From the NCBI GenBank assembly GCA_007124045.1, contig SLFX01000002.1, positions 1-37,370 on the forward strand: a stretch of 37,370 bases of DNA, read 5' to 3'. Origin of the DNA: Candidatus Delongbacteria bacterium. GTDB lineage: Bacteria; UBA4055. The position numbers and the translations under genes were made by a program. Below, one piece after another: positions 1-37,370 of the stretch; within the stretch, counting starts at the first letter, position 1; every line of letters begins with the position of its first letter. The notes below the pieces were generated by a model, which was not told where the DNA came from, made no database searches, and was given only the letters and a program-made list of their open reading frames with translations.

Positions 1-1469
1 CCCTTTTTTCCTTCAAAATTCAAAACCAGTGCTGAATTGTCGGGAACTCCGATAGTTGTGTTTGCTGTGGGTGTTATCTGGTCATAAGTTGATCTTGTAG
101 CCTCTGCGGTATTACCGTAAGCACCGATGTTAACCCTTTCGCCGTTGGGAATAGGCTCATTTTCGAAAGGAGACATAGGATCACCTGCATCAATACATGG
201 CGACAGAAGAGAGACATGGAAATCGAACCTGTTCTTGTTAATTCTTCTCGGATAATCATACAGTCTTGTCAGATCAGGCGGTCTAACAAAAAGAGGGTTC
301 TGGCTTATATTAGTACCCTCTCCGGTGAAATACTGTTCAATGTTGCAGTAATTAAAAACATTGTCGGGATGTAATCCGCCGCCCTGATTTTGAATAAAAA
401 AGTTGGATGGTCCGACCAGATCTCTATTGCCCCATAAAATAGAGTTTCTTATAATGGGAGCATTGCCGTTAAAGGATCTGATGAATATTCCGGATGACTG
501 CTGGTTTTTTTCTTCTTTTGAAGGTTCAAGGAAGTTGTAAACGACATTTATGTTTGTAAAGGTTATGTTATTGGGATTCTGAGTCTGACCCATATCGATC
601 TGAATACCTGACTGGTAGTATCCCTTGTTCATAAAAACTATCAAATTCCTGAACTTCTGCGCAAGTATCGGACCGGGCATTTCTTCCATGAAGGACATAA
701 AAATGCCGCTTCCCTGAAATGCCGAGTTGGTAAAGATCAGAGATTTCTCGAATTCAAGGTCTATTTTACCTTTGTTATCGTAGTAAAGAGCTCCTCCAAG
801 TTCGTATCCCCTATTTTGAGTAAATGTACATTTAGAAATTTTGATGTGCATATTGTTGGGTGAGTCAAACTTGTCCAAAATGTAAATAGCTCCGCCATCC
901 TGTCCTTCGTTAGCTATGAACTGGCTGTTAAGAATATCAATTTGACTTAACGAATTGAGGGAGTTGTTGTAAACATGCACCGCTCCACCGTAACTTCCGT
1001 AATTGTTTTCAAATAAAGTTTCATCGACCGTAACATTTCCGCCGACTATCTTCAAAGCGCCGGGTTTGCCGTACATTCCGCTGTTACCCCGGAATATACA
1101 ATTGTGGATGACTGCATTTGACTGCATCAGTACAAGCGGCGTGTCTCCTGCTCCAATGAATACAGCATGACTGAATTCGTTCAAGGCGGTCGTGTTTTCC
1201 AGAATAATTCCGCCCCAGTTAGAATCAAGAGCATAATAGTTCGAGAAAAGTACAGGATTGCTGGGATCGCCGTAAACTTTTATTTCTCCCTGGACAGTAA
1301 GCGTCACCTGATTTCCGAAACCGACTCTGGTTCCCGCTTCAATAATAAGAACATCTCCAACCTGAACGGTGTAGTCGTCATTTAAGACGACATTTCCCCG
1401 CCATACAGTCGTATTGGACATGAGTGCAGTGAAGAGAAACGACACCGCAATTACCATTATTTTTTTCAT
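1..1469 (-). CDS. Secreted parallel beta-helix surface protein, partial (C-terminus beyond window)
   Basis: The frame is open from an ATG at 1469 to the window edge (489 codons). The start is supported by a GGGGAG Shine-Dalgarno about 8 nt upstream. The N-terminus MKKIMVIAVSFLFTALMSNT is a signal peptide. The body is a string of short Asn/Gly-rich turns (for example NCIFRGNSG, LFENNYGSYGGAV, FIANEGQDGGAIY) typical of right-handed parallel beta-helix (pectate-lyase-like) proteins. It ends in a block with SPCIDAGDP and NIGAYGNTAEAT that recurs almost word for word in the upstream neighbour. It lies 21 nt after that neighbour and is probably cotranscribed with it. It is likely exported to the cell surface or medium; whether it binds or degrades glycans cannot be told. 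No catalytic residues are identifiable. Confidence 0.85.
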   Translation of the reverse strand, partial: MKKIMVIAVSFLFTALMSNTTVWRGNVVLNDDYTVQVGDVLIIEAGTRVGFGNQVTLTVQGEIKVYGDPSNPVLFSNYYALDSNWGGIILENTTALNEFSHAVFIGAGDTPLVLMQSNAVIHNCIFRGNSGMYGKPGALKIVGGNVTVDETLFENNYGSYGGAVHVYNNSLNSLSQIDILNSQFIANEGQDGGAIYILDKFDSPNNMHIKISKCTFTQNRGYELGGALYYDNKGKIDLEFEKSLIFTNSAFQGSGIFMSFMEEMPGPILAQKFRNLIVFMNKGYYQSGIQIDMGQTQNPNNITFTNINVVYNFLEPSKEEKNQQSSGIFIRSFNGNAPIIRNSILWGNRDLVGPSNFFIQNQGGGLHPDNVFNYCNIEQYFTGEGTNISQNPLFVRPPDLTRLYDYPRRINKNRFDFHVSLLSPCIDAGDPMSPFENEPIPNGERVNIGAYGNTAEATRSTYDQITPTANTTIGVPDNSALVLNFEGKK

Positions 1470-1490: not shown

Positions 1491-4400
1491 TTACTGTGTA
1501 AGCGAATTCTTGATTTTTAACTCGTTTTTGTCAATTGAAGCCGGAGTTTTAACAACCGGAATATCAAAGTTGATGCCTGTATCTTCAACATACGGTATAT
1601 CTTTCACTCCTTCTCTTGACGCAGTTACATAATAGAAGTATTTGTCTGATCCCGATGTGGATCCGGACCATGATGTCGAAGATGTGTTGGCAACTATGCT
1701 AAAACCGGCGTAAGGATTATCCGACCTGTAAATTGAATAGGAAACCGCATCCGGTACTCTGGACCATGAAAGCGAAACGGTTGTTGCTGAAATGACGCAG
1801 GATACATTCTGAGGAGCATAGAATTGCGATTCCTGCCAGAATTCGAATGCTCCTATATCGGGTGCACTGCCGTAATAATTTTCGCCGTAAACATGGTATC
1901 TTTCATCATATCTCCCGGTGTTAATACACTTTGAGTCTCTCCAGAGATAAAAATCATTTATTCTCGTGGACTGGAAAAGGGGATCGTCACTAAGTGTATT
2001 TTCCTCGTGATGAACTGATCCGGGGGAGATACTGCCGACAATATTGTTGTTGAGAAGTATGAGATTTTTTGAGTCTGAATGTATATCTGAATAAGTTTTA
2101 GGGCCGTAGAAAATGTTGTTTATTATTTCTATGAGATTGACGGTATTTTCGAAATAGATACCTTTGTTAGCATTGTAAACAGTGTTGTTGATGAATATTG
2201 AGTTTTCAGACAGACCGATGGCATAAAAACCGTATCTGTAACCGGATCCGCTATCAGAAAAACTTATAGCATTGTAGTGGGCGTTCACAAAGGAATTATC
2301 CACGGATAATGCGTGTATTTCAGTAGAACGATCATCGTTCGAGATAATCCGGTTATTATCTACTTCATACGACGAATTGTCAGTAAGGTGAATAGCTTTT
2401 CGTGCTGTTTTGTTTTTTGTCGCTTCCGAAACATTGAAACTGATAGTATTGTTGGTTATCCTTCCCGATGAAGAACCCAATGCTTCAATGCCGGTATCAG
2501 CATCTATAACAATATTATCTTCTATGTCAGCAAGACTGTTTTCTGTGACTATACCTTTGTTTGTAACGCCTTTTGTTGCTTCAACAGCATTGAAACTTAC
2601 AGTATTATTTGTGATCCTTCCTTTCCTGGCAGCTTTTCCGTTCGCTTTTCCGCCTCCGAAATATATACCGATATTGAAATTATCTATTATGTTGTTCTCG
2701 ATATATGCGTTTTCCGCATCGGCAGTTATACCTGTGAGTTCAGCGTTGAAATCGAAAAGGTATATGTGCGAATCTCTGAGGGTGAGATCTTTTCCCGGAC
2801 TGATGCAGGAAACTGCCATATTGCTGAATCTGGCTCCGGTACAGTCCATGCTGTTGACGCGTAGTATATTATAAGGAAGTTCTGATCCGTTAGGGTCCGG
2901 CAGTCTCTGGATCCTTGTTGTGTAGAGATCACCTATTTTGGCCCCCTCCGTTACAAGAGATTCTATGAATATTTCAGGATCATACGGCTTGGATGCTATG
3001 AATATCTGACCTCCGTCCTCGATCCTCAGTTCTGTTAATTCAACAGTTTCTTTGTACTCCCGGGTGTTCAGGAGTACTGTTTCGCCTCTTTTTACCAAAA
3101 CGGATACCGGTTTTGTGTAGATTATTGTTTCAAAAATCGATGTGGTCGCCTCGTTTGTATTTCCGTATGCCCCCATGTTTACTATAGTTCCGTCAGGCTC
3201 AACAGAGGGTATTTTGGGATCTCCGGCATCAACACACGGGGATTCAAGAGAAAGCCGGTAATCTCCGCGCAGAAAATTACGGTAGGGCAAAGCACCGTGA
3301 TTTTCAACCTTTCGCATGAACATCGGATCGCCTTCGATGTTCCCTGTGCCTTCAATTTTTGAAGTGAAATTCGAGTAGGATATAAAACTGCCCGGATAGG
3401 TGTAAGGTATTGTAGCAACATCTGAAATCTCAGACCCGAGATAGTTGTTGTAGAATATCATGTTCCTCATTTCAAAGAGGTTGCCGATTTTATCATCAAA
3501 TTCAATAAACAGTCCGCCCGCACCGCTTTTACCGTCAGTATTATGGTTGTTCACTATGTCGTTATTCTCGAAAATGATATTCTCAATGTTTTCTGTCAGT
3601 CCAGTTCTGTACAAAACTCCGCCCGATTTTTCTGACGAGGTGTTATTGGAAATAATATTATTTGTAAAAATGTGTTCGCCGGTTCCTTTTTTTGAAATAT
3701 GCTCCACATAAAGACCGCCGCCGCTCCCGGATACATTGTACATTATCTTGTTTCCGATGAGAGAAACGGAATGCCCCTGACCTGTAATTATGCTTATTCC
3801 GCCGCCATTTCCTGTGTATAAGCCTTTCAAATCACGAACAGTATTTGAGATTATGTTATTTTCCTGTATAAGAATGTTTGATTTTATCCCTTCCTCATTA
3901 TCAAGTTCCTCTATGTAAACAGCTCCCCCTCCAACGGATTTCTCACCCTCCACTCTATTGTTTATAAAAGTGTTCTTGAAAAATTTGACATTCGCCAAAT
4001 ATGTATCGCTGTTAAGTATTGAGACAGCTCCTCCGTGCTGTTGTGCGGTATTGTTCTCGATAATGCTGTGTTCCAGAGTCAATGCCGAATTATCAACGAA
4101 AAATGCACCGCCTCTTGAAGATTCGTTGTTGTGGATCCTTGTGTTTCGGACTTTAACTATCGAATTAGACAGATCAATACTGCCTTTTCCGTCATTTCTG
4201 ATGATATTTTCTATAACGCAGTGCTCTATCCGCGAAGTATCCTGATCGGCCTTAATAAAATCTATACCTCTCCAGAAATCATTGCCTCCGGATTCCGGTT
4301 CATAAGAAGTGAGTCTTATAGGATCTTTTTCAAGTCCCTGAGCCAGAAGTATTCCGCCGTCAATGATCAGTTTGGCATCTGAAGCAAATCTTACAACTGT

Positions 4401-4538
4401 ACCGGGCATTATCTCCAGTACTTTCCCTTCTTCGACAATATGATCTTTTTTTACATCAACATAACCCTGCCATATCTGACCGAGTAACGCGCTTCCGGCT
4501 GAAAAAACACACAGAATCAACAATGTTATTTTTCGCAT
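1491..4538 (-). CDS. Large secreted parallel beta-helix protein with C-terminal fibronectin type III domain
   Basis: This gene encodes 1,015 residues. I chose the ATG at 4538 over an in-frame upstream ATG at 4616 because AGGAGG lies 6 nt before it and the protein then begins with a clean signal peptide (MRKITLLILCVFSAGSALLGQ). Residues about 60-480 and 560-880 are beta-helix coils rich in NNxI/NNTISFN turns. A SPCVDAGDP...GAYGNTNEAT block closes the first helix, and a second CINTGR...GAPDIGAFEF-like block closes the second. Residues about 903-985 form a fibronectin III fold (VSLSWSRVPDAVSYSIYRS, then YFYYVTA). There is no recognisable C-terminal sorting domain; the chain ends in NSLTQ. It is probably a cell-surface adhesin or glycan-binding protein. 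It is the first gene of a two-gene operon and sits behind a CRP-type operator. Confidence 0.88.
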   Translation of the reverse strand: MRKITLLILCVFSAGSALLGQIWQGYVDVKKDHIVEEGKVLEIMPGTVVRFASDAKLIIDGGILLAQGLEKDPIRLTSYEPESGGNDFWRGIDFIKADQDTSRIEHCVIENIIRNDGKGSIDLSNSIVKVRNTRIHNNESSRGGAFFVDNSALTLEHSIIENNTAQQHGGAVSILNSDTYLANVKFFKNTFINNRVEGEKSVGGGAVYIEELDNEEGIKSNILIQENNIISNTVRDLKGLYTGNGGGISIITGQGHSVSLIGNKIMYNVSGSGGGLYVEHISKKGTGEHIFTNNIISNNTSSEKSGGVLYRTGLTENIENIIFENNDIVNNHNTDGKSGAGGLFIEFDDKIGNLFEMRNMIFYNNYLGSEISDVATIPYTYPGSFISYSNFTSKIEGTGNIEGDPMFMRKVENHGALPYRNFLRGDYRLSLESPCVDAGDPKIPSVEPDGTIVNMGAYGNTNEATTSIFETIIYTKPVSVLVKRGETVLLNTREYKETVELTELRIEDGGQIFIASKPYDPEIFIESLVTEGAKIGDLYTTRIQRLPDPNGSELPYNILRVNSMDCTGARFSNMAVSCISPGKDLTLRDSHIYLFDFNAELTGITADAENAYIENNIIDNFNIGIYFGGGKANGKAARKGRITNNTVSFNAVEATKGVTNKGIVTENSLADIEDNIVIDADTGIEALGSSSGRITNNTISFNVSEATKNKTARKAIHLTDNSSYEVDNNRIISNDDRSTEIHALSVDNSFVNAHYNAISFSDSGSGYRYGFYAIGLSENSIFINNTVYNANKGIYFENTVNLIEIINNIFYGPKTYSDIHSDSKNLILLNNNIVGSISPGSVHHEENTLSDDPLFQSTRINDFYLWRDSKCINTGRYDERYHVYGENYYGSAPDIGAFEFWQESQFYAPQNVSCVISATTVSLSWSRVPDAVSYSIYRSDNPYAGFSIVANTSSTSWSGSTSGSDKYFYYVTASREGVKDIPYVEDTGINFDIPVVKTPASIDKNELKIKNSLTQ

Positions 4539-4569
4539 TTTGAACCTCCTTTTTAAACTACAGAGGAAA

Positions 4570-4578
4570 AATATTACA
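4570..4578 (-). promoter_or_regulatory. Candidate extended -10 for the beta-helix operon
   Basis: The minus strand reads TGTAATATT, which fits an extended -10 (TGn followed by AATATT, or TAATAT offset by one base). There is no good -35 box; the CRP-type palindrome occupies that place. This is the layout expected of an activator-dependent promoter. The start point would be near 4561-4564, giving a leader of about 25 nt. Confidence 0.4.
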
Positions 4579-4594: not shown

Positions 4595-4610
4595 TGTGAC
4601 CCGTGTCACA
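4595..4610. promoter_or_regulatory. Perfect CRP/FNR-family operator (TGTGA-N6-TCACA)
   Basis: The 16 bases TGTGACCCGTGTCACA match the CRP half-sites 10 of 10. The site is centred at 4602.5, about 64 nt upstream of the beta-helix start codon and 31-33 bp upstream of the end of a candidate -10 (minus strand, 4576-4570). That would put it close to -40, a class II activator position. That it binds a CRP-like protein is inferred from the consensus. No regulator gene is in the window. Confidence 0.6.
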
Positions 4611-30960: not shown

Positions 30961-31329
30961 GTGAGTACTTCTATACCTGATCAGTTCAGGATAACCCTTT
31001 CATCATTCTATGGAAGATCATATACCGTACTAATAAGGGACGGAAAACTGCACTACCATTCAAACAGGCCCGAAAAAATGATAAAAAGGCGACCTGCGGA
31101 TGAAGACTGGCAGAAGTTCTGGAAAAAAACAGTAAGTCTGAAAATATGGCTGTGGGAGAAAGAGTATCTGGACAAATCTACATCCGACGGCTCAAACTGG
31201 AGCGTGAATATTGAGATCGGTAGTCTAAAACTCAAATCTTACGGTTCAAACAAAAAACCGGAGAATTTTTCAGAGTTTCTGGATGCTCTGCGCGAACTGT
31301 TGCCCGGAATAGAGCTTATGCTGAACTAG
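30961..31329 (+). CDS. Small conserved-looking protein of unknown function (122 aa)
   Basis: The start is GTG with CGGAGTG upstream. The pattern DEDWQKFWKKTVSLKIWLWEKEY, then DGSNWSVNIEIGSLKLKSYGSNKKPENFSEFLDAL, looks like a compact, Trp-rich alpha/beta protein. I recall similar short bacterial proteins with the same DG..W...I..G..K..SYG.N..P..F layout, but no function is known to me. It is soluble, with no signal or membrane segment. It lies between recJ and the cyclase gene in what looks like one operon. Confidence 0.7.
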   Translation: MSTSIPDQFRITLSSFYGRSYTVLIRDGKLHYHSNRPEKMIKRRPADEDWQKFWKKTVSLKIWLWEKEYLDKSTSDGSNWSVNIEIGSLKLKSYGSNKKPENFSEFLDALRELLPGIELMLN

Positions 31330-31351: not shown

Positions 31352-34300
31352 ATGAGAAATCTTATACCAGAAAGAATTGCAAAGAACTTTGAAAAAGGCA
31401 AATATTCAGATAAGTTCAAATGCTTTTCCATGTTTGTCGATATCTCAGGTTTTACCAGCACTACCGAAGCTCTGATGAGACACGGCCAGGAGGGTGCTGA
31501 AGTTTTATCTGATATTCTGAAATATTTGTTCGAAGAAACAGTTAGAGCTGTATATGAAAGAGGAGGTTATGTAACCAAATTTGCGGGCGATGCTTTTACT
31601 GCTATTTTTGAGCCTGCGGGGTCTGATGAACAGACAGCTCTGAATGTTTTGGAAGCAGCCCTGATAACCAACATGTTTTTTGCGAAAAATAAAACATTCA
31701 GATCAAAGTACGGAGATTTCGAGTTTGGCGTAAAGATCGGACTCGGTTACGGAGAGTGTTATTGCGGAATAGCAGGAAAGGGTTTAGAAAAAACATATTA
31801 TTTCAGCGGTTCCGCAGTAGATATTTGCGCTAAAGCTGAACATAATGCATCTAAAGGTCAGATCTGGGCTTCAGAAAATTTTTACCGGTTTGTCGAAAAT
31901 GTTGTAAAAGAGACCGGAAGAAATAATCTTTACGGAATGGAATTTTTCAAAATAGGGAAATGTTCAGAGTTCAATACGGAAATCAGTGACTATGAGTTTG
32001 AGGGTTACCGACCAGAAACATTATATGCTCTGGCGGGCGAGTCTGAATCCGAATTTCCCATCGGCGAGTTCAGGGATATCGTTTCCGTATTCATATCTTT
32101 TAAAGGAGAGGTTGACCTGAATGAACTTATGACGAAAGTATATGAGATAAGGTCCATTTACGGCGGATCACACCCGGTACTTGATTTTGGTGACAAGGGG
32201 GGAAATATACTTTTCTTTACAGGTGCGCCGATTTCATACGAAAATAACGGAGCCAGAGCATTAAATTTTGTTAATGACCTTTTTGAATGGTCAGACAAGA
32301 CAGACGGCCTGCAAATAAGGGCAGGTCTGGCAAAAGGTGTTGTTTACTGCGGCTTCAACGGTTCAGAACTGAGGAATGAGTTTACCTGCCTGGGAAACAC
32401 AGTGAATCAGAGTGCAAGATTCATGATGAAAGCTGACTGGGGGCAAATATACACAGATCATGAACTGTCAAAATGTTCTGAATTTAGATTTGCCTGCCTC
32501 GGGGAAATGGCCTACAAAGGCAGGGAAAAGGGCATAGCTACCTTCAGAATGGACGGGAAACTTGAGTTAAAAGATGTTTTCTTCAAAGGTGAATTCGTTG
32601 GCAGAACTGTCGAAAAGAAAAGACTTAAGAGCTTTTTGTCGCCGCTTATTTCAAAATCGAACTGCGGTGTACTTTATCAGGATGGTGACGCGGGATCAGG
32701 AAAATCAAGGCTGGCAAATCAGGTTAGGCAGGAGATCACATCCCGGAGCGTTAAAGAAAGGCAAAATGTTGAATGGTTATACTTCGTATGCGACGATATA
32801 ATAAAAACGCCTTACAACCCGCTGAAGTATTTTCTCAACAGATATTTTGATCTTAAAGGCGACGATCTGAAGGCAAATCGTGAAAAGATCAGAAAAAAAA
32901 TTCCTGCTGAAATGATCGCACATTCGGAATACATATCATTTTTTCTTGATATGGGATCGGAAAGTAAAGACATACTGGATCAGGACCCTGTGGAAAGGCA
33001 GAATTCCGTGATACTTTCCCTCATACTGTTTTTTAAAAGTCTGAATAACAACAGATCTGTCATTTACGAGATCGATAATGCATCTTTTGCTGATGATCTT
33101 TCAATTGATTTTTTTAAGAGACTTTCTGTTGAGCTGAAAAAACACCCTGCCGCATTTATTTTTAACTGCCGGTATAAAGATAATGGGGAAAACTACGATT
33201 TCGGTTTCATAAAACAGAAAAGACTAAAGATCAAATCTTTAAAAGCATCAGATTTTAAAGAGCTTGTAAAAAACAGGCTGGGAGTAAGATCTGTGCCTGT
33301 TGAAACAATTGAACTGATAGCAGAAAAGAGTTTCAGGAATCCGTTTTATGCAGAACAGGTCATTATGTATGTTAAAGAAAAGCATCTGCTGGACTCAAAA
33401 CTGAAAATAGTTTCAGGTAAAGAGATCCCCAACGGAATAAATCAGATAATGATAGCGAGAGTTGACAAACTTGATGCGGTTCAGAAAGAAATAGTCAAAA
33501 CGGCATCCGTTCTCGGAAATGAGGTAGATGTTGATATTCTGGCCGAGTTGCTTGGCGGCGGACACGGCATTTTAAAAGATCATTTGAATACTCTGGAATC
33601 AGAAGATATTTTAATAAAATTCAATGAGTATAGTTATTTGTTTAAATATTCAGCACTTCGCGAAGCAGTTTACGGAATGCAGCTAAAAAAGATTTTAAGA
33701 GAACTGCACAACAGGGCAGGTTCTGCCATTGAATATTTGCATCCTGAGAATCCGGAAAAATATCTTTCTGTACTTGCATTTCATTTTGATAATGCTGAAA
33801 ACACGGACAAAGCACTTGAGTATCATAAAAAGGCCGGATATAAACTCAAGGAAAAATATGAGAACAGGTCAGCTTCGGAACATTTTGAGAGATGGGATAT
33901 TATCGCAAAGGATCATCTGAAAAATGACCTGTATGACAACAAAATGACATCCTCGATTATCGAGATAGGCCTGATCAGGTTTTATTTTTCTTTTTCCATA
34001 TTTCATGATATTGAAAGGAGTAATAAGATCATAGATGATCTGCTCGGGTATGGCGAGAGAACAACAAAGATCACCGACAAAGCTCAGATAATGATGGATT
34101 ATGCAAATTTTCTCAATTACAAAGGAAAAGTGTCAGAGGCCGAGAAGTACTATAATGATGCGAAAGAGATTTATATTAGTGCACATGATTATCATAAATT
34201 AGCTCTCATAAATCTGAGCCTGGGAAAGAACCGCATGGCATCCGGTGAGGCTGATAAAGCTCTTGAACTGTACGACCATGCACTCAAGAACGCTTCAATG

Positions 34301-34984
34301 GTAGAGAATCCATTGAAAAGTGCGAAAGTGGAGTCTTCAATTTACGGAGATATGGGCATAATCTATGACTACTCGGGCGATTTTCCGAAAGCGCTGGAGT
34401 ATTACGGGAAACAATTGTCAATATGCGAAAAATATGGTTTTAAGATGGAGATGGCGACGGTAATAGGAAATATAGGGGTTGTCTATCACCTTACCGGTGA
34501 TCTCGACAAGGCTGCTTCCTGCTATGAAAAGAAGCTCAAGTTAAGTACCGAACTGGGAAAAAGAAACGAAATAGCTCTTGCCCTTAACAATATCGGTTAT
34601 CTTTATAAAGACAAGGGTAATTATTCCAAAGCGCTCAGATACTTCCAGAAAAGCAGAAGTATAAGCAGAGAACTAATGGATAACGCTTCTGTTGCCAATG
34701 TGAGTGTAAATATCGGCCATGTATATAAACTCATGAACGATGGCGTTAAGTCCGAAAAAGAGTATCTTAAAGGTATTGAAATATCCGAAAAATACAGTTA
34801 TAAATCTGTTTTGGCCGAAGGTATGGTGGAACTGGCCGATCTATATTTATTATTAAAAAGACCCGATGAAGCATTAAATTATGCCGATAAAGGATATATG
34901 ATCTCAAAGAGCATCGGACTTGGGGAATATATCTCAAAGGGAGAGGATCTGATAAAAAAGATCAAAATAAATCAAAAATTGTAA
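31352..34984 (+). CDS. Soluble-adenylyl-cyclase-like protein: two class III cyclase domains, AAA ATPase, TPR repeats
   Basis: The protein has 1,210 residues; CCGGAGAG precedes the ATG. Cyclase domain 1 (about 22-180) holds metal aspartates D30 (FVDISGF) and D80, with base-binding K76 in KFAGDAF. Its transition-state pair is replaced, reading D157 and K161 in VDICAKA. Cyclase domain 2 (about 240-375) has lost the first aspartate (VFISFKG, S249) but keeps N352 and R356 in VNQSARFM. So one complete site can form between the domains, as in mammalian ADCY10. A STAND/AAA-like ATPase follows (Walker A GDAGSGKS, 445-452; EIDNASFADD near 575). From about 800 to the end come TPR repeats, including ALALNNIGYLYKDKGNYSKALRYF. 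There is no signal or membrane segment, so it is cytosolic. It probably makes cAMP in response to a ligand or partner sensed through the ATPase/TPR part. Confidence 0.88.
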   Translation: MRNLIPERIAKNFEKGKYSDKFKCFSMFVDISGFTSTTEALMRHGQEGAEVLSDILKYLFEETVRAVYERGGYVTKFAGDAFTAIFEPAGSDEQTALNVLEAALITNMFFAKNKTFRSKYGDFEFGVKIGLGYGECYCGIAGKGLEKTYYFSGSAVDICAKAEHNASKGQIWASENFYRFVENVVKETGRNNLYGMEFFKIGKCSEFNTEISDYEFEGYRPETLYALAGESESEFPIGEFRDIVSVFISFKGEVDLNELMTKVYEIRSIYGGSHPVLDFGDKGGNILFFTGAPISYENNGARALNFVNDLFEWSDKTDGLQIRAGLAKGVVYCGFNGSELRNEFTCLGNTVNQSARFMMKADWGQIYTDHELSKCSEFRFACLGEMAYKGREKGIATFRMDGKLELKDVFFKGEFVGRTVEKKRLKSFLSPLISKSNCGVLYQDGDAGSGKSRLANQVRQEITSRSVKERQNVEWLYFVCDDIIKTPYNPLKYFLNRYFDLKGDDLKANREKIRKKIPAEMIAHSEYISFFLDMGSESKDILDQDPVERQNSVILSLILFFKSLNNNRSVIYEIDNASFADDLSIDFFKRLSVELKKHPAAFIFNCRYKDNGENYDFGFIKQKRLKIKSLKASDFKELVKNRLGVRSVPVETIELIAEKSFRNPFYAEQVIMYVKEKHLLDSKLKIVSGKEIPNGINQIMIARVDKLDAVQKEIVKTASVLGNEVDVDILAELLGGGHGILKDHLNTLESEDILIKFNEYSYLFKYSALREAVYGMQLKKILRELHNRAGSAIEYLHPENPEKYLSVLAFHFDNAENTDKALEYHKKAGYKLKEKYENRSASEHFERWDIIAKDHLKNDLYDNKMTSSIIEIGLIRFYFSFSIFHDIERSNKIIDDLLGYGERTTKITDKAQIMMDYANFLNYKGKVSEAEKYYNDAKEIYISAHDYHKLALINLSLGKNRMASGEADKALELYDHALKNASMVENPLKSAKVESSIYGDMGIIYDYSGDFPKALEYYGKQLSICEKYGFKMEMATVIGNIGVVYHLTGDLDKAASCYEKKLKLSTELGKRNEIALALNNIGYLYKDKGNYSKALRYFQKSRSISRELMDNASVANVSVNIGHVYKLMNDGVKSEKEYLKGIEISEKYSYKSVLAEGMVELADLYLLLKRPDEALNYADKGYMISKSIGLGEYISKGEDLIKKIKINQKL

Positions 34985-34995
34985 TACATATCACA
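34980..34995. promoter_or_regulatory. CRP/FNR-family operator, 9 of 10 half-site bases (TGTAA-N6-TCACA)
   Basis: TGTAATACATATCACA differs from the CRP half-site consensus at one position. It overlaps the stop codon of the cyclase gene and is centred at 34987.5, about 73 nt before the fibre gene start and about 29.5 bp from the end of a TATATT box (35012-35017). The spacing is close to that at the beta-helix operon. Binding is inferred. Confidence 0.45.
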
Positions 34996-35006
34996 GTTTT
35001 TTCAGT

Positions 35007-35017
35007 TATATTATATT
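35007..35017 (+). promoter_or_regulatory. Candidate -10 region for the S74 fibre operon
   Basis: Two overlapping TATATT hexamers (35007-35012 and 35012-35017) lie in TTATATTATATTAA without a good -35; the CRP-type site sits about where an activator would. The leader would be about 35-40 nt and contains CGGAGG, the Shine-Dalgarno. Confidence 0.4.
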
Positions 35018-35060
35018 AAATTGCTTTAAGTTTAAGTAATTTAAGAAAATCGGAGGTTCT

Positions 35061-36545
35061 GTGAAAATATCAAAATTCCTGGCTAAAGCAGCTTTGATCG
35101 CAGCTTTTGTTGTGCCTGTTTTACATTCGGAAACACTTTTTCAGGTAAAGGACAGTCAGGACAGAGTCGTACTTGATGTATCAACTGACGGACTGAGGGT
35201 TTATAACGAGGGCGATCTTCTCATGGAGATAAGTTCATCGGATATCAGGGCGTTCATTGATAACGATCCACAAAAAGGTTTGGCGAGATCGTTTAGTGTT
35301 ACCACATCTTCGAATCAGAAGGGAGATACAAATGTACTTGAAGTAACAACTCAGGACGCGAAAATGCGGGAGGGTACGGATGGAGATCAATACACAGTAT
35401 TCAGTCCGGAAAATATATTTCTTGGACTGAATGCAGGAGTTTCCAACACAGATGGAACATCAAATGTTTTTCTTGGAAATAACAGCGGTTTTTCCAACTC
35501 GCTGGGAGGAAATAATATATTTATCGGAACAGAAAGCGGGCATAATTCGACCAACACTTTTCAGAATACATTTGTAGGTCACAGAAGCGGTTATTCGCTT
35601 ACAGGAGCTTCCAGTACAGTCGTAGGATCTTTTGCAGGAGAGAATGCCGGAGGTTCAAATAATACTTTTGTCGGTAGAAGTTCAGGAAGAGATGCAACAG
35701 GAGGAAATAACACTTTTTTCGGACAGGGATCAGGAGCAAGCGTGGGAAGAATTAATACAGGAAGATTTAACACTTATATAGGTGAGAATTCAGGTTCTTT
35801 CACTACAAGTGGAAATAATAATGTTGCTCTCGGTTATTGGGCAGGCTATCTTAATCTCGAAGGCGAGAATAATGTCATGATCGGATATCATTCAGGAAGG
35901 GGAAGCGGGCAGTATTCGGGATCGAACAACATATACATAGGTTATGAATCAGGAAGGAACAGCAACTCGGCAACCGGCAATGTATTCATAGGTTATCAGG
36001 CAGGAAGAGAAGAAACTCTTTCTAATAAACTTTATATTGCAAATTCCAGCACATCAACACCCTTAATAAAGGGAACATTTCCGAATACGGACTTGGAATT
36101 CAGAGCTACCAACATAAACCTTATCGGAAAAGTTAATGCTACAGTTCTTGGTTCAGGATCAGGAGCAAATCTGCACATTACATCAGGAAATGAAATAGTA
36201 AAACAAACCTCAAGCAGAAAGTATAAAAAAGATATTGAAGAACTATTCTTTGATATTTCAAAATTCATGAAATTGCGCCCAGTGAGTTTTAAATGGAACG
36301 AAAAAAGCTCAACTGAAAATAAAGAGGATTACGGACTTATAGCCGAAGAAGTTGAAAAGATCGATCCTCAGTTGGCAATATATGATGGGGAAGGGGATAT
36401 CGAAGGTGTAGATTATCAGAAAGTAAATATCATGCTTCTTAAAGTAGTTCAGGATCAGCAGAATAAAATTGATGAACTTGAGAAACAAAATAATATGATA
36501 ATTAGAGAACTGAGCTTAATCAAACAATCACTTAAGTTGGAATAA
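35061..36545 (+). CDS. Surface fibre protein with 12 NxxxG repeats and C-terminal S74 self-cleaving chaperone domain
   Basis: The protein has 494 residues, with a GTG start after CGGAGG. The signal peptide is MKISKFLAKAALIAAFVVPVLHS. A conserved head (24-126) follows. Then come about a dozen repeats of about 15-25 residues of the form N-[TVI]-[FY]-[IVL]-G-x-x-[SA]-G (NVFLGNNSG, NIFIGTESG, NTFVGRSSG, NVFIGYQAG), like trimeric adhesin or tail-fibre beta-helices. The C-terminal part from S384 (SSRKYKKDIEEL, then LRPVSFKWNE, YGLIAEEVE, VDYQKVNIMLLKVVQDQQ) is a peptidase S74 intramolecular chaperone, which trimerises the fibre and cuts itself off at a Ser. It probably forms a trimeric surface fibre. 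It is the first of at least two tandem paralogues. Confidence 0.88.
   Translation: MKISKFLAKAALIAAFVVPVLHSETLFQVKDSQDRVVLDVSTDGLRVYNEGDLLMEISSSDIRAFIDNDPQKGLARSFSVTTSSNQKGDTNVLEVTTQDAKMREGTDGDQYTVFSPENIFLGLNAGVSNTDGTSNVFLGNNSGFSNSLGGNNIFIGTESGHNSTNTFQNTFVGHRSGYSLTGASSTVVGSFAGENAGGSNNTFVGRSSGRDATGGNNTFFGQGSGASVGRINTGRFNTYIGENSGSFTTSGNNNVALGYWAGYLNLEGENNVMIGYHSGRGSGQYSGSNNIYIGYESGRNSNSATGNVFIGYQAGREETLSNKLYIANSSTSTPLIKGTFPNTDLEFRATNINLIGKVNATVLGSGSGANLHITSGNEIVKQTSSRKYKKDIEELFFDISKFMKLRPVSFKWNEKSSTENKEDYGLIAEEVEKIDPQLAIYDGEGDIEGVDYQKVNIMLLKVVQDQQNKIDELEKQNNMIIRELSLIKQSLKLE
35130..35438 (+). repeat. 309-bp direct repeat, copy 1 (fibre head domain)
   Basis: It encodes the 103-residue segment from ETLFQVKDSQDR to NIFLGLNAG. 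It aligns without gaps to copy 2 at 36609-36917; 94 of 103 residues are identical, with many silent third-position changes. Identity collapses immediately after both ends. Confidence 0.85.
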
Positions 36546-36557
36546 GAGGAGAACAAA

Positions 36558-37370
36558 ATGAAGAAGTATGCAGTTTTAATCATGGTAGCAGTTTTTTTAC
36601 TGACCGCCGAAACGCTTTTTCAAGTGAAGGACAGTCAGGACAGAGTAGTTCTTGATGTGTCAACTGACGGACTGAGGGTCTATAATGAAGGCGATCTTTT
36701 GATGGAGATAAGTTCATCGGATATTAGAGCTTTCATTGACAACGATCCGTCAAAAGGTTTAGCAAGATCTTTCAGTGTTACGACCTCATCTAATCAGAAG
36801 GGAGATACCAATGTACTCGAAGTAACCACGGATGCCACCCAAATGCGAGAGGGTGATGAGGGACAGCAATATACGGATTTTAGTCCTGAAAATATCTTTC
36901 TCGGATTAAACGCAGGCAAAAACACTGACTACGATCCTGGATTGCCGGGTAAGAATTATATCATAATCGGAAACGAGGCGGGGGCAAATGTAAGAGGTGG
37001 AGTCAGGAATATATACATAGGACATGAAACGGGATACGGATACGGTTATGGCAATCCTGAACCTTCGCACGGTGGTGAGGACAATATTTTCATTGGATAT
37101 AGAGCAGGTTACAAGAACTGGGTTTCTGTAAGGCAAATGTTTATCGGTACCGAAGCCGGTACAAATCAAACTGGAGGTTCTCATAATACCTACATAGGAA
37201 CTTCGGCCGGTATGAGAGGTGTAAATGGCAGTCATAATCTATTTCTTGGGGCAAATGCGGGTTGGAGAAATATCAGCGGTTCAAATAATACCTATATTGG
37301 AACGGGCAGTGGTTCGGGAAGCCAGGATTATAGCGTAAACTACAATACTTTTATTGGTCAGGGGTCAGGA
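36558..37370 (+). CDS. Second S74-type surface fibre protein, partial (C-terminus beyond window)
   Basis: The frame is open for 271 codons to the window edge. AAGAGGAG precedes the ATG, 12 nt after the first fibre gene. The signal peptide is short (MKKYAVLIMVAVFLLTA). The head domain is almost identical to that of its neighbour, then a different set of NxxxG repeats begins (NIYIGHETG, NIFIGYRAG, NTYIGTSAG, NLFLGANAG, NTFIGQGSG), with a Gly/Tyr-rich insertion GYGYGYGNPEPSHGG. The S74 domain is expected downstream but cannot be seen. It looks like a tandem duplicate with a diversified shaft. Confidence 0.85.
   Translation, partial: MKKYAVLIMVAVFLLTAETLFQVKDSQDRVVLDVSTDGLRVYNEGDLLMEISSSDIRAFIDNDPSKGLARSFSVTTSSNQKGDTNVLEVTTDATQMREGDEGQQYTDFSPENIFLGLNAGKNTDYDPGLPGKNYIIIGNEAGANVRGGVRNIYIGHETGYGYGYGNPEPSHGGEDNIFIGYRAGYKNWVSVRQMFIGTEAGTNQTGGSHNTYIGTSAGMRGVNGSHNLFLGANAGWRNISGSNNTYIGTGSGSGSQDYSVNYNTFIGQGSG
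36609..36917 (+). repeat. 309-bp direct repeat, copy 2 (fibre head domain)
   Basis: This is the counterpart of 35130-35438. Of nine amino-acid differences, eight cluster in the last 30 residues; the first 74 residues differ at only one (Q to S). Confidence 0.85.

Follow-up and report, generated by a model that had tools for sequence, protein, structure and literature searches.

Control of surface structures by the cyclic AMP (cAMP) receptor protein (CRP) is already known from other bacteria. In Synechocystis, the class III cyclase Cya1 acts together with the CRP SYCRP1, which activates the surface-appendage genes slr1667/pilA9-slr2018 (PMC7076178, PMC2633013); in Pseudomonas aeruginosa, the class III cyclase CyaB feeds the CRP homolog Vfr, controlling surface structures (type IV pili) and the virulence regulon (PMC3019171, PMC8787478). 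A related arrangement was analysed in Candidatus Delongbacteria, an uncultured phylum whose gene regulation is almost uncharted, on a stretch of 37,370 nucleotides (the window; contig C30 of a 1.99 Mb metagenome-assembled genome, 95 % complete). Here, a gene for a predicted class III adenylyl cyclase, with human soluble adenylyl cyclase (sAC, ADCY10) as its best fold match, directly precedes an array of putative surface fibres of the Peptidase_S74 type, and a CRP-type site lies at the junction. The favoured reading, which is rather probable, is that several surface operons are activated by cAMP-CRP from class II promoters and that the sAC-like cyclase is kept beside one of these targets. Thirteen genomes of the family (labelled G000-G012) were used for comparison, and individual CRP-type sites outside the window were examined in selected sequence stretches.

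CRP-type promoters of putative surface operons

Two operons for predicted secreted proteins in the window are preceded by CRP-type sites:

34980..34995, + strand: one-mismatch CRP-type site TGTAATACATATCACA, which overlaps the stop codon of the cyclase gene and precedes the fibre array
35017..35022, + strand: putative -10 box TAAATT, starting at the site centre +30
35061..36545, + strand: fibre gene 1, with a signal-peptide-like start (judged by eye from the sequence), a conserved N-domain, head-type repeats and a C-terminal Peptidase_S74 chaperone domain at residues 384-438 (Pfam E 7.5e-11)
36558..37370, + strand: fibre gene 2, cut by the contig end before any S74 domain
4595..4610, - strand: perfect CRP-type site TGTGACACGGGTCACA as read on the minus strand (TGTGACCCGTGTCACA for 4595-4610), before the beta-helix operon
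4568..4573, - strand: putative -10 box TATTTT at the site centre +30
1491..4538, - strand: secreted-type right-handed beta-helix protein of 1015 amino acids (aa), first gene of its operon (Pfam Beta_helix E 4e-14, full-length orthologs)
3..1469, - strand: second gene of this operon, likewise of the beta-helix type, truncated at the contig end and 32 % identical to the first

An initial annotation of this DNA had placed a CRP-type operator directly after the cyclase gene, followed by fibre genes. This operator is indeed found at 34980-34995, with a perfect promoter-side half and a degenerate upstream half, and is conserved in 8/9 orthologous locations. Among the aligned intergenic regions, all seven carry the site with an identical TCACA half, compared to 32-51 % identity in neighbouring parts of the spacer and just 32-46 % in the stretch beyond the site, the -10 excepted, and a TATATT-type -10 begins 29-30 bp past the site centre in the fibre-promoter orthologs. 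Site and -10 together (the latter searched at centre +29 to +31) occur in 7/7 orthologous intergenic regions, as compared to 0.03-0.8 % of shuffles. With G011 added, the combination stands before eight of nine first fibre genes and before none of 74 other fibre genes; the latter represent an internal control, since internal genes share the coding family, not the promoter.

The annotated second operator, a perfect one before another surface operon 30 kb away, was confirmed as well: orthologous beta-helix promoters, with full-length orthologs and upstream sequence available from six other genomes, in 7/7 cases display a perfect TGTGA-N6-TCACA site with a TAnnnT exactly at +30, without any spacing filter. 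The perfect site lies 56 bp before the start codon that is probably used (ATG 4538 behind AGGAGG); the longest open reading frame (ORF) would put it inside the gene. Two beta-helix genes in tandem are also present in G003, G006 and G010. In relatives, the fibre arrays end with a third surface gene that has its own CRP-type promoter, perfect in G008, G011, G001, G007 and G004 and with one mismatch in G006 and G009. Perfect CRP class II-type promoters of this large array-end gene were located at L195:4567-4609, L201:8910-8952, L203:1273-1315, L205:2192-2234 and L192 (G004 C56:37088-37130); its own-genome counterpart on contig C130 has no such promoter. Of the 22 surface promoters compared, 20 have a -10 starting at +30 and two have it at +29, six non-window beta-helix entries of this set having been chosen by a -10 at +30, so that the unfiltered evidence is that of the 7/7 orthologs.

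A -10 at centre +30 places the site at -41.5, in the case of the fibre array relative to a predicted transcription start at ~35029, and -41.5 is a common position of activating CRP (PMC10328515). Thus, the window sites have the architecture of class II CRP-type promoters, at which a CRP dimer may contact RNA polymerase and drive expression of the secreted S74-type fibre array (site 34980) and of the beta-helix surface operon (site 4595).

Repression instead of activation has to be considered, as a CRP dimer bound close to a promoter can block RNA polymerase. However, the site centre at -41.5 of the predicted start is the standard activator position, and the near-exact spacing in three promoter families renders repression very unlikely.

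With respect to frequency, single sites are not above chance: the window alone contains 11 CRP-type matches at ≤2 mismatches versus 16 expected. In the whole genome, 51 sites with ≤1 mismatch compare to 20 for the reversed control, and 11 versus one remain when a class II-spaced -10 is demanded as well; over the 13 genomes the class II pattern yields 137 versus 33. An excess over the reversed pattern is evident in most relatives with a CRP ortholog (e.g., 51/11 in G007 and 63/23 in G010), whereas none is observed in G009 (50/53) and in G002 (44/56), the latter being without CRP ortholog. A chance origin of the two window sites is rejected in view of their conservation and spacing.

Further CRP-type sites precede other secreted-protein genes and genes of different function. 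An [FeFe]-hydrogenase-type gene is preceded by a perfect palindrome (TGTGAAAAAAATCACA, L112:144-159); on the divergent side of this site, a TAnnnT is found at class II spacing. A one-mismatch site with TATAAT at exactly +30 (L109; contig C171, 2015-2030) precedes a gene for a Ser/Thr kinase with an AAA_16 domain, and similar sites (TGTGACGCAGGACACA) recur in relatives.

The TGTGA-N6-TCACA palindrome is also contained in the operator of Rex, which senses NADH/NAD+ (consensus TTGTGAAW4TTCACAA; PMC2883068), and Rex-like inner bases (A...T) are seen in some of the perfect palindromes of relatives, such as G004 C17 and G008 C26. However, the 22 surface promoters carry A or G, never T, at inner position 11 and mostly T or C at position 6, and the Rex DNA-binding family PF06971 is not found in the own genome by a search that, as control, retrieves it from seven genomes. 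Rex operators are thus practically ruled out.

Candidate regulator and sAC-like cyclase

The own genome encodes six cyclic nucleoside monophosphate (cNMP)-binding proteins, three of them with a helix-turn-helix. One of the latter (C164:42377-43072) carries the motif SRETLSR as does CRP of E. coli, while the other two have FNR-like helices (read by eye). This CRP candidate matches CRPs of the PDB and combines a cNMP-binding domain with an R-E-x-x-x-R recognition helix. Orthologs are present in 11 of the 13 family genomes, and in all 11, SRETLSR is conserved along with the GE motif and the arginine that binds phosphate. Since its score of 101.9 bits falls short of the 266 bits set for the CRP equivalog model NF008732, the protein is regarded as CRP-like rather than equivalent to CRP of E. 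coli. The ligand pocket is non-canonical: S83 is replaced by Asn except in G005 (canonical RSA), S128 by Asp, and T127 is mostly kept, with Ala in two relatives. Because of this pocket and the low equivalog score, cAMP is no more than the likely ligand. Alternatively, a CRP-family protein could bind the sites but answer another ligand or none, with the cyclase being functionally separate. The same pocket changes and score speak for this view, and cAMP-independent DNA binding is known in the family from DdrI (PMC11253593). Retention of the GE motif and the phosphate-binding arginine throughout the orthologs, as well as the canonical RSA in G005, make it unlikely.

The following two features lie upstream of the fibre promoter:

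31352..34984, + strand: sAC-like class III adenylyl cyclase of 1210 aa (Pfam, sequence and fold match to human sAC); Pfam domains CHD1 (aa ~26-182), CHD2 (aa ~239-400), AAA_16-like ATPase (aa ~414-595) and TPR region (aa ~958-1189)
30961..31329, + strand: small ORF of 122 aa directly upstream of the cyclase gene, conserved in position

The cyclase sequence matches human sAC (E 2e-21), and human sAC is also the first fold match of residues 1-403 (E 6e-31, TM 0.85, model pLDDT 91) with 21-23 % identity in the fold alignment. Both catalytic domains reside in one chain, as expected for a C1-C2 pseudo-heterodimer. Residues of sAC involved in (i) metal binding (D47, D99), (ii) ATP selection (K334, T405) and (iii) the transition state (N412, R416) correspond to D30 and D80, K282 and T345, and N352 and R356, respectively; together with K128, this catalytic set is unchanged across eight cyclase orthologs. 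With these residues invariant, the enzyme is predicted to form cAMP from ATP, in agreement with the annotation as adenylyl cyclase; the base-recognizing Lys/Thr residues speak against a guanylyl cyclase.

Bicarbonate had been among the signals initially proposed, and this part could not be maintained. R176, the bicarbonate switch residue of sAC (PMC12250328, PMC12867704), aligns with A160 and is Ala in 8/8 orthologs; K95 of the bicarbonate site is retained, except for Asn in G005. A sea urchin sAC lacking Arg176 is unresponsive to bicarbonate, and the site is missing from many animal sACs too (PMC12867704), so that its alteration here excludes the mammalian mechanism but not likeness to sAC. 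Given the invariant Ala, the enzyme more likely responds to some other signal received through its ATPase/TPR part, or to pH like non-mammalian sAC.

The 122-aa ORF adjoins the cyclase gene in G010, G004, G006 and G009 and stays beside it in G006, where RecJ does not. It has no Pfam match and a low-confidence model (pLDDT 48), and is a possible partner of the cyclase. Upstream of the cyclase gene or of this ORF, no CRP-type site with ≤1 mismatch is present in the own genome or in relatives (the best one, in G008, has two mismatches), which speaks against CRP control of the cyclase itself.

Gene order and possible locality of the cAMP signal

Full-length cyclase orthologs are encoded in genera g1, g4, g5, g6 and g7 (50-54 % identity; 37 % in G005). 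The cyclase gene is directly followed by a fibre gene in G000, G003, G004, G005, G006, G007, G008 and G010; wherever the contig runs on, it continues with a fibre gene carrying the common N-domain. In G011, the array lies on another contig, preceded by the end of the cyclase gene. The cyclase-S74 order is thus kept across several genera. Outside Delongbacteria, a genome scan of 42 loci from other groups detected no S74 gene within 8 kb of the cyclase or up to the contig end, ruling out such linkage for these loci.

The initial annotation had suggested a local cAMP circuit setting the surface coat. Its locality may be questioned: the class II CRP promoters could be real without the neighbouring cyclase being a special cAMP source, the gene order being passively inherited and pooled cAMP driving a global CRP regulon. 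This view is backed by the seven proteins with cyclase domains facing a single CRP in the own genome, by the sites before the hydrogenase, kinase and other secreted-protein genes, and by the synteny of upstream genes as far as RecJ in g4 and g5. Against it, G006 and G005 retain the cyclase-fibre order despite different upstream genes, and cyclase and fibres, jointly present in ten genomes, are jointly absent from G002 and G012. This rival view is rather doubtful, though by no means negligible. The retained order and the joint absence favour a special link; seven cyclases and one CRP with other likely targets, however, speak against a private circuit, and its locality is unproven. Of the initial proposal, CRP-type control of surface operons is probable and the coat is probably set in part by the cAMP level, whereas locality is weakened and bicarbonate is not supported.

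Several observations, besides the altered ligand pocket and the number of cyclases, weigh against class II cAMP-CRP activation with a cyclase kept beside its target. At the fibre promoter of the window, the upstream half-site reads TGTAA, and the -10 TAAATT has several other TAnnnT around it in AT-rich sequence. G005, the most distant relative, keeps the gene order but has no site and only 11 bp between the genes. G004 (91 % complete) possesses sites, but no CRP ortholog was detected; in G002, also without CRP ortholog, the class II pattern still gains (11 versus 3), hence the correlation of sites with the CRP ortholog is imperfect. G001 (82 % complete) harbours fibres without a cyclase ortholog. 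Moreover, the seven cyclase genes share one diffusible signal, and the orthologs stem from related genomes and are not independent observations.

According to the favoured reading, class III cyclases would make cAMP, among them the sAC-like, ATPase/TPR-regulated enzyme encoded before the fibre array, whose gene may have been kept there since its signal feeds the array. As the upstream half-site is degenerate in front of the fibres but perfect in front of the beta-helix operon, the coat could respond stepwise, with beta-helix proteins formed at low cAMP and fibres only at high cAMP. One may further speculate that a dedicated, non-bicarbonate sAC-type sensor cyclase and its small partner ORF lie in cis with the fibre operon switched on by the cAMP of this cyclase, the signal read by the ATPase/TPR part setting the types of fibres in steps governed by site strength; this extension is possible but tentative.

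Surface proteins and comparison with known systems

The N-domains of fibre genes 1 and 2 are 83 % identical, and the array probably continues on contig C130. Fibre genes examined elsewhere (L056, L057, L059 and L060) have in common an N-domain of ~100 residues and differ by swapped C-termini, i.e., the S74 chaperone, a second non-S74 end and a weak H_lectin match, which suggests modular surface variation. A C-terminal segment of ~70 residues in the beta-helix protein (window 1491-1817, residues ~908-975) is common to dozens of proteins per Delongbacteria genome; it looks like a sorting or surface-anchoring domain, and no NCBIfam sorting-domain model matches it.

The fibres resemble the Peptidase_S74 tail-fibre and endosialidase chaperone proteins of phages in carrying a C-terminal S74 intramolecular chaperone domain on a repetitive fibre, but differ in being chromosomal, in their signal-peptide-like starts, and in forming tandem arrays with a common N-domain and, in part, other C-termini. 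Phage tails are where S74-type fibres are best known; in Delongbacteria they may serve as a regulated coat of the cell surface. The cyclase shares with human sAC the tandem C1-C2 domains, the catalytic and ATP-selecting residues and an ATPase plus TPR-like C-terminal part, and differs by the exchange of R176 and, in G005, K95; the fold match covers the catalytic region, and any kinship of the sensor part would be conjectural. As a bacterial sAC-type cyclase with likely output genes, it may help to ask what ATPase/TPR cyclases sense without the mammalian bicarbonate mechanism.

As in E. coli, TGTGA-N6-TCACA sites centred at -41.5 (PMC10328515) go along with an SRETxxR recognition helix, but S83 and S128 are replaced, the -10 is TA(T/A)(A/T)TT, and the targets are secreted fibres and beta-helix proteins. 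The targets in Synechocystis are pilus-related, the function of SYCRP1 was tested experimentally, and the available text of the reports mentions no cyclase gene beside the target operon. The CyaB-Vfr system of P. aeruginosa involves no S74 fibres. CyaB is a membrane enzyme tied to the chemosensory array. A literature search retrieved no link between cyclase, CRP and S74 fibres. In the literature searched, Delongbacteria are mentioned by 14 papers, and none of those listed names them in its title or abstract. For this group, the outcome is a regulon footprinted down to the bases of its promoters, together with a named candidate regulator; compared to the systems above, in which CRP control of surface structures is established, what is new is a sAC-type cyclase linked in cis and S74 fibres as the target, in a phylum that is uncultured.

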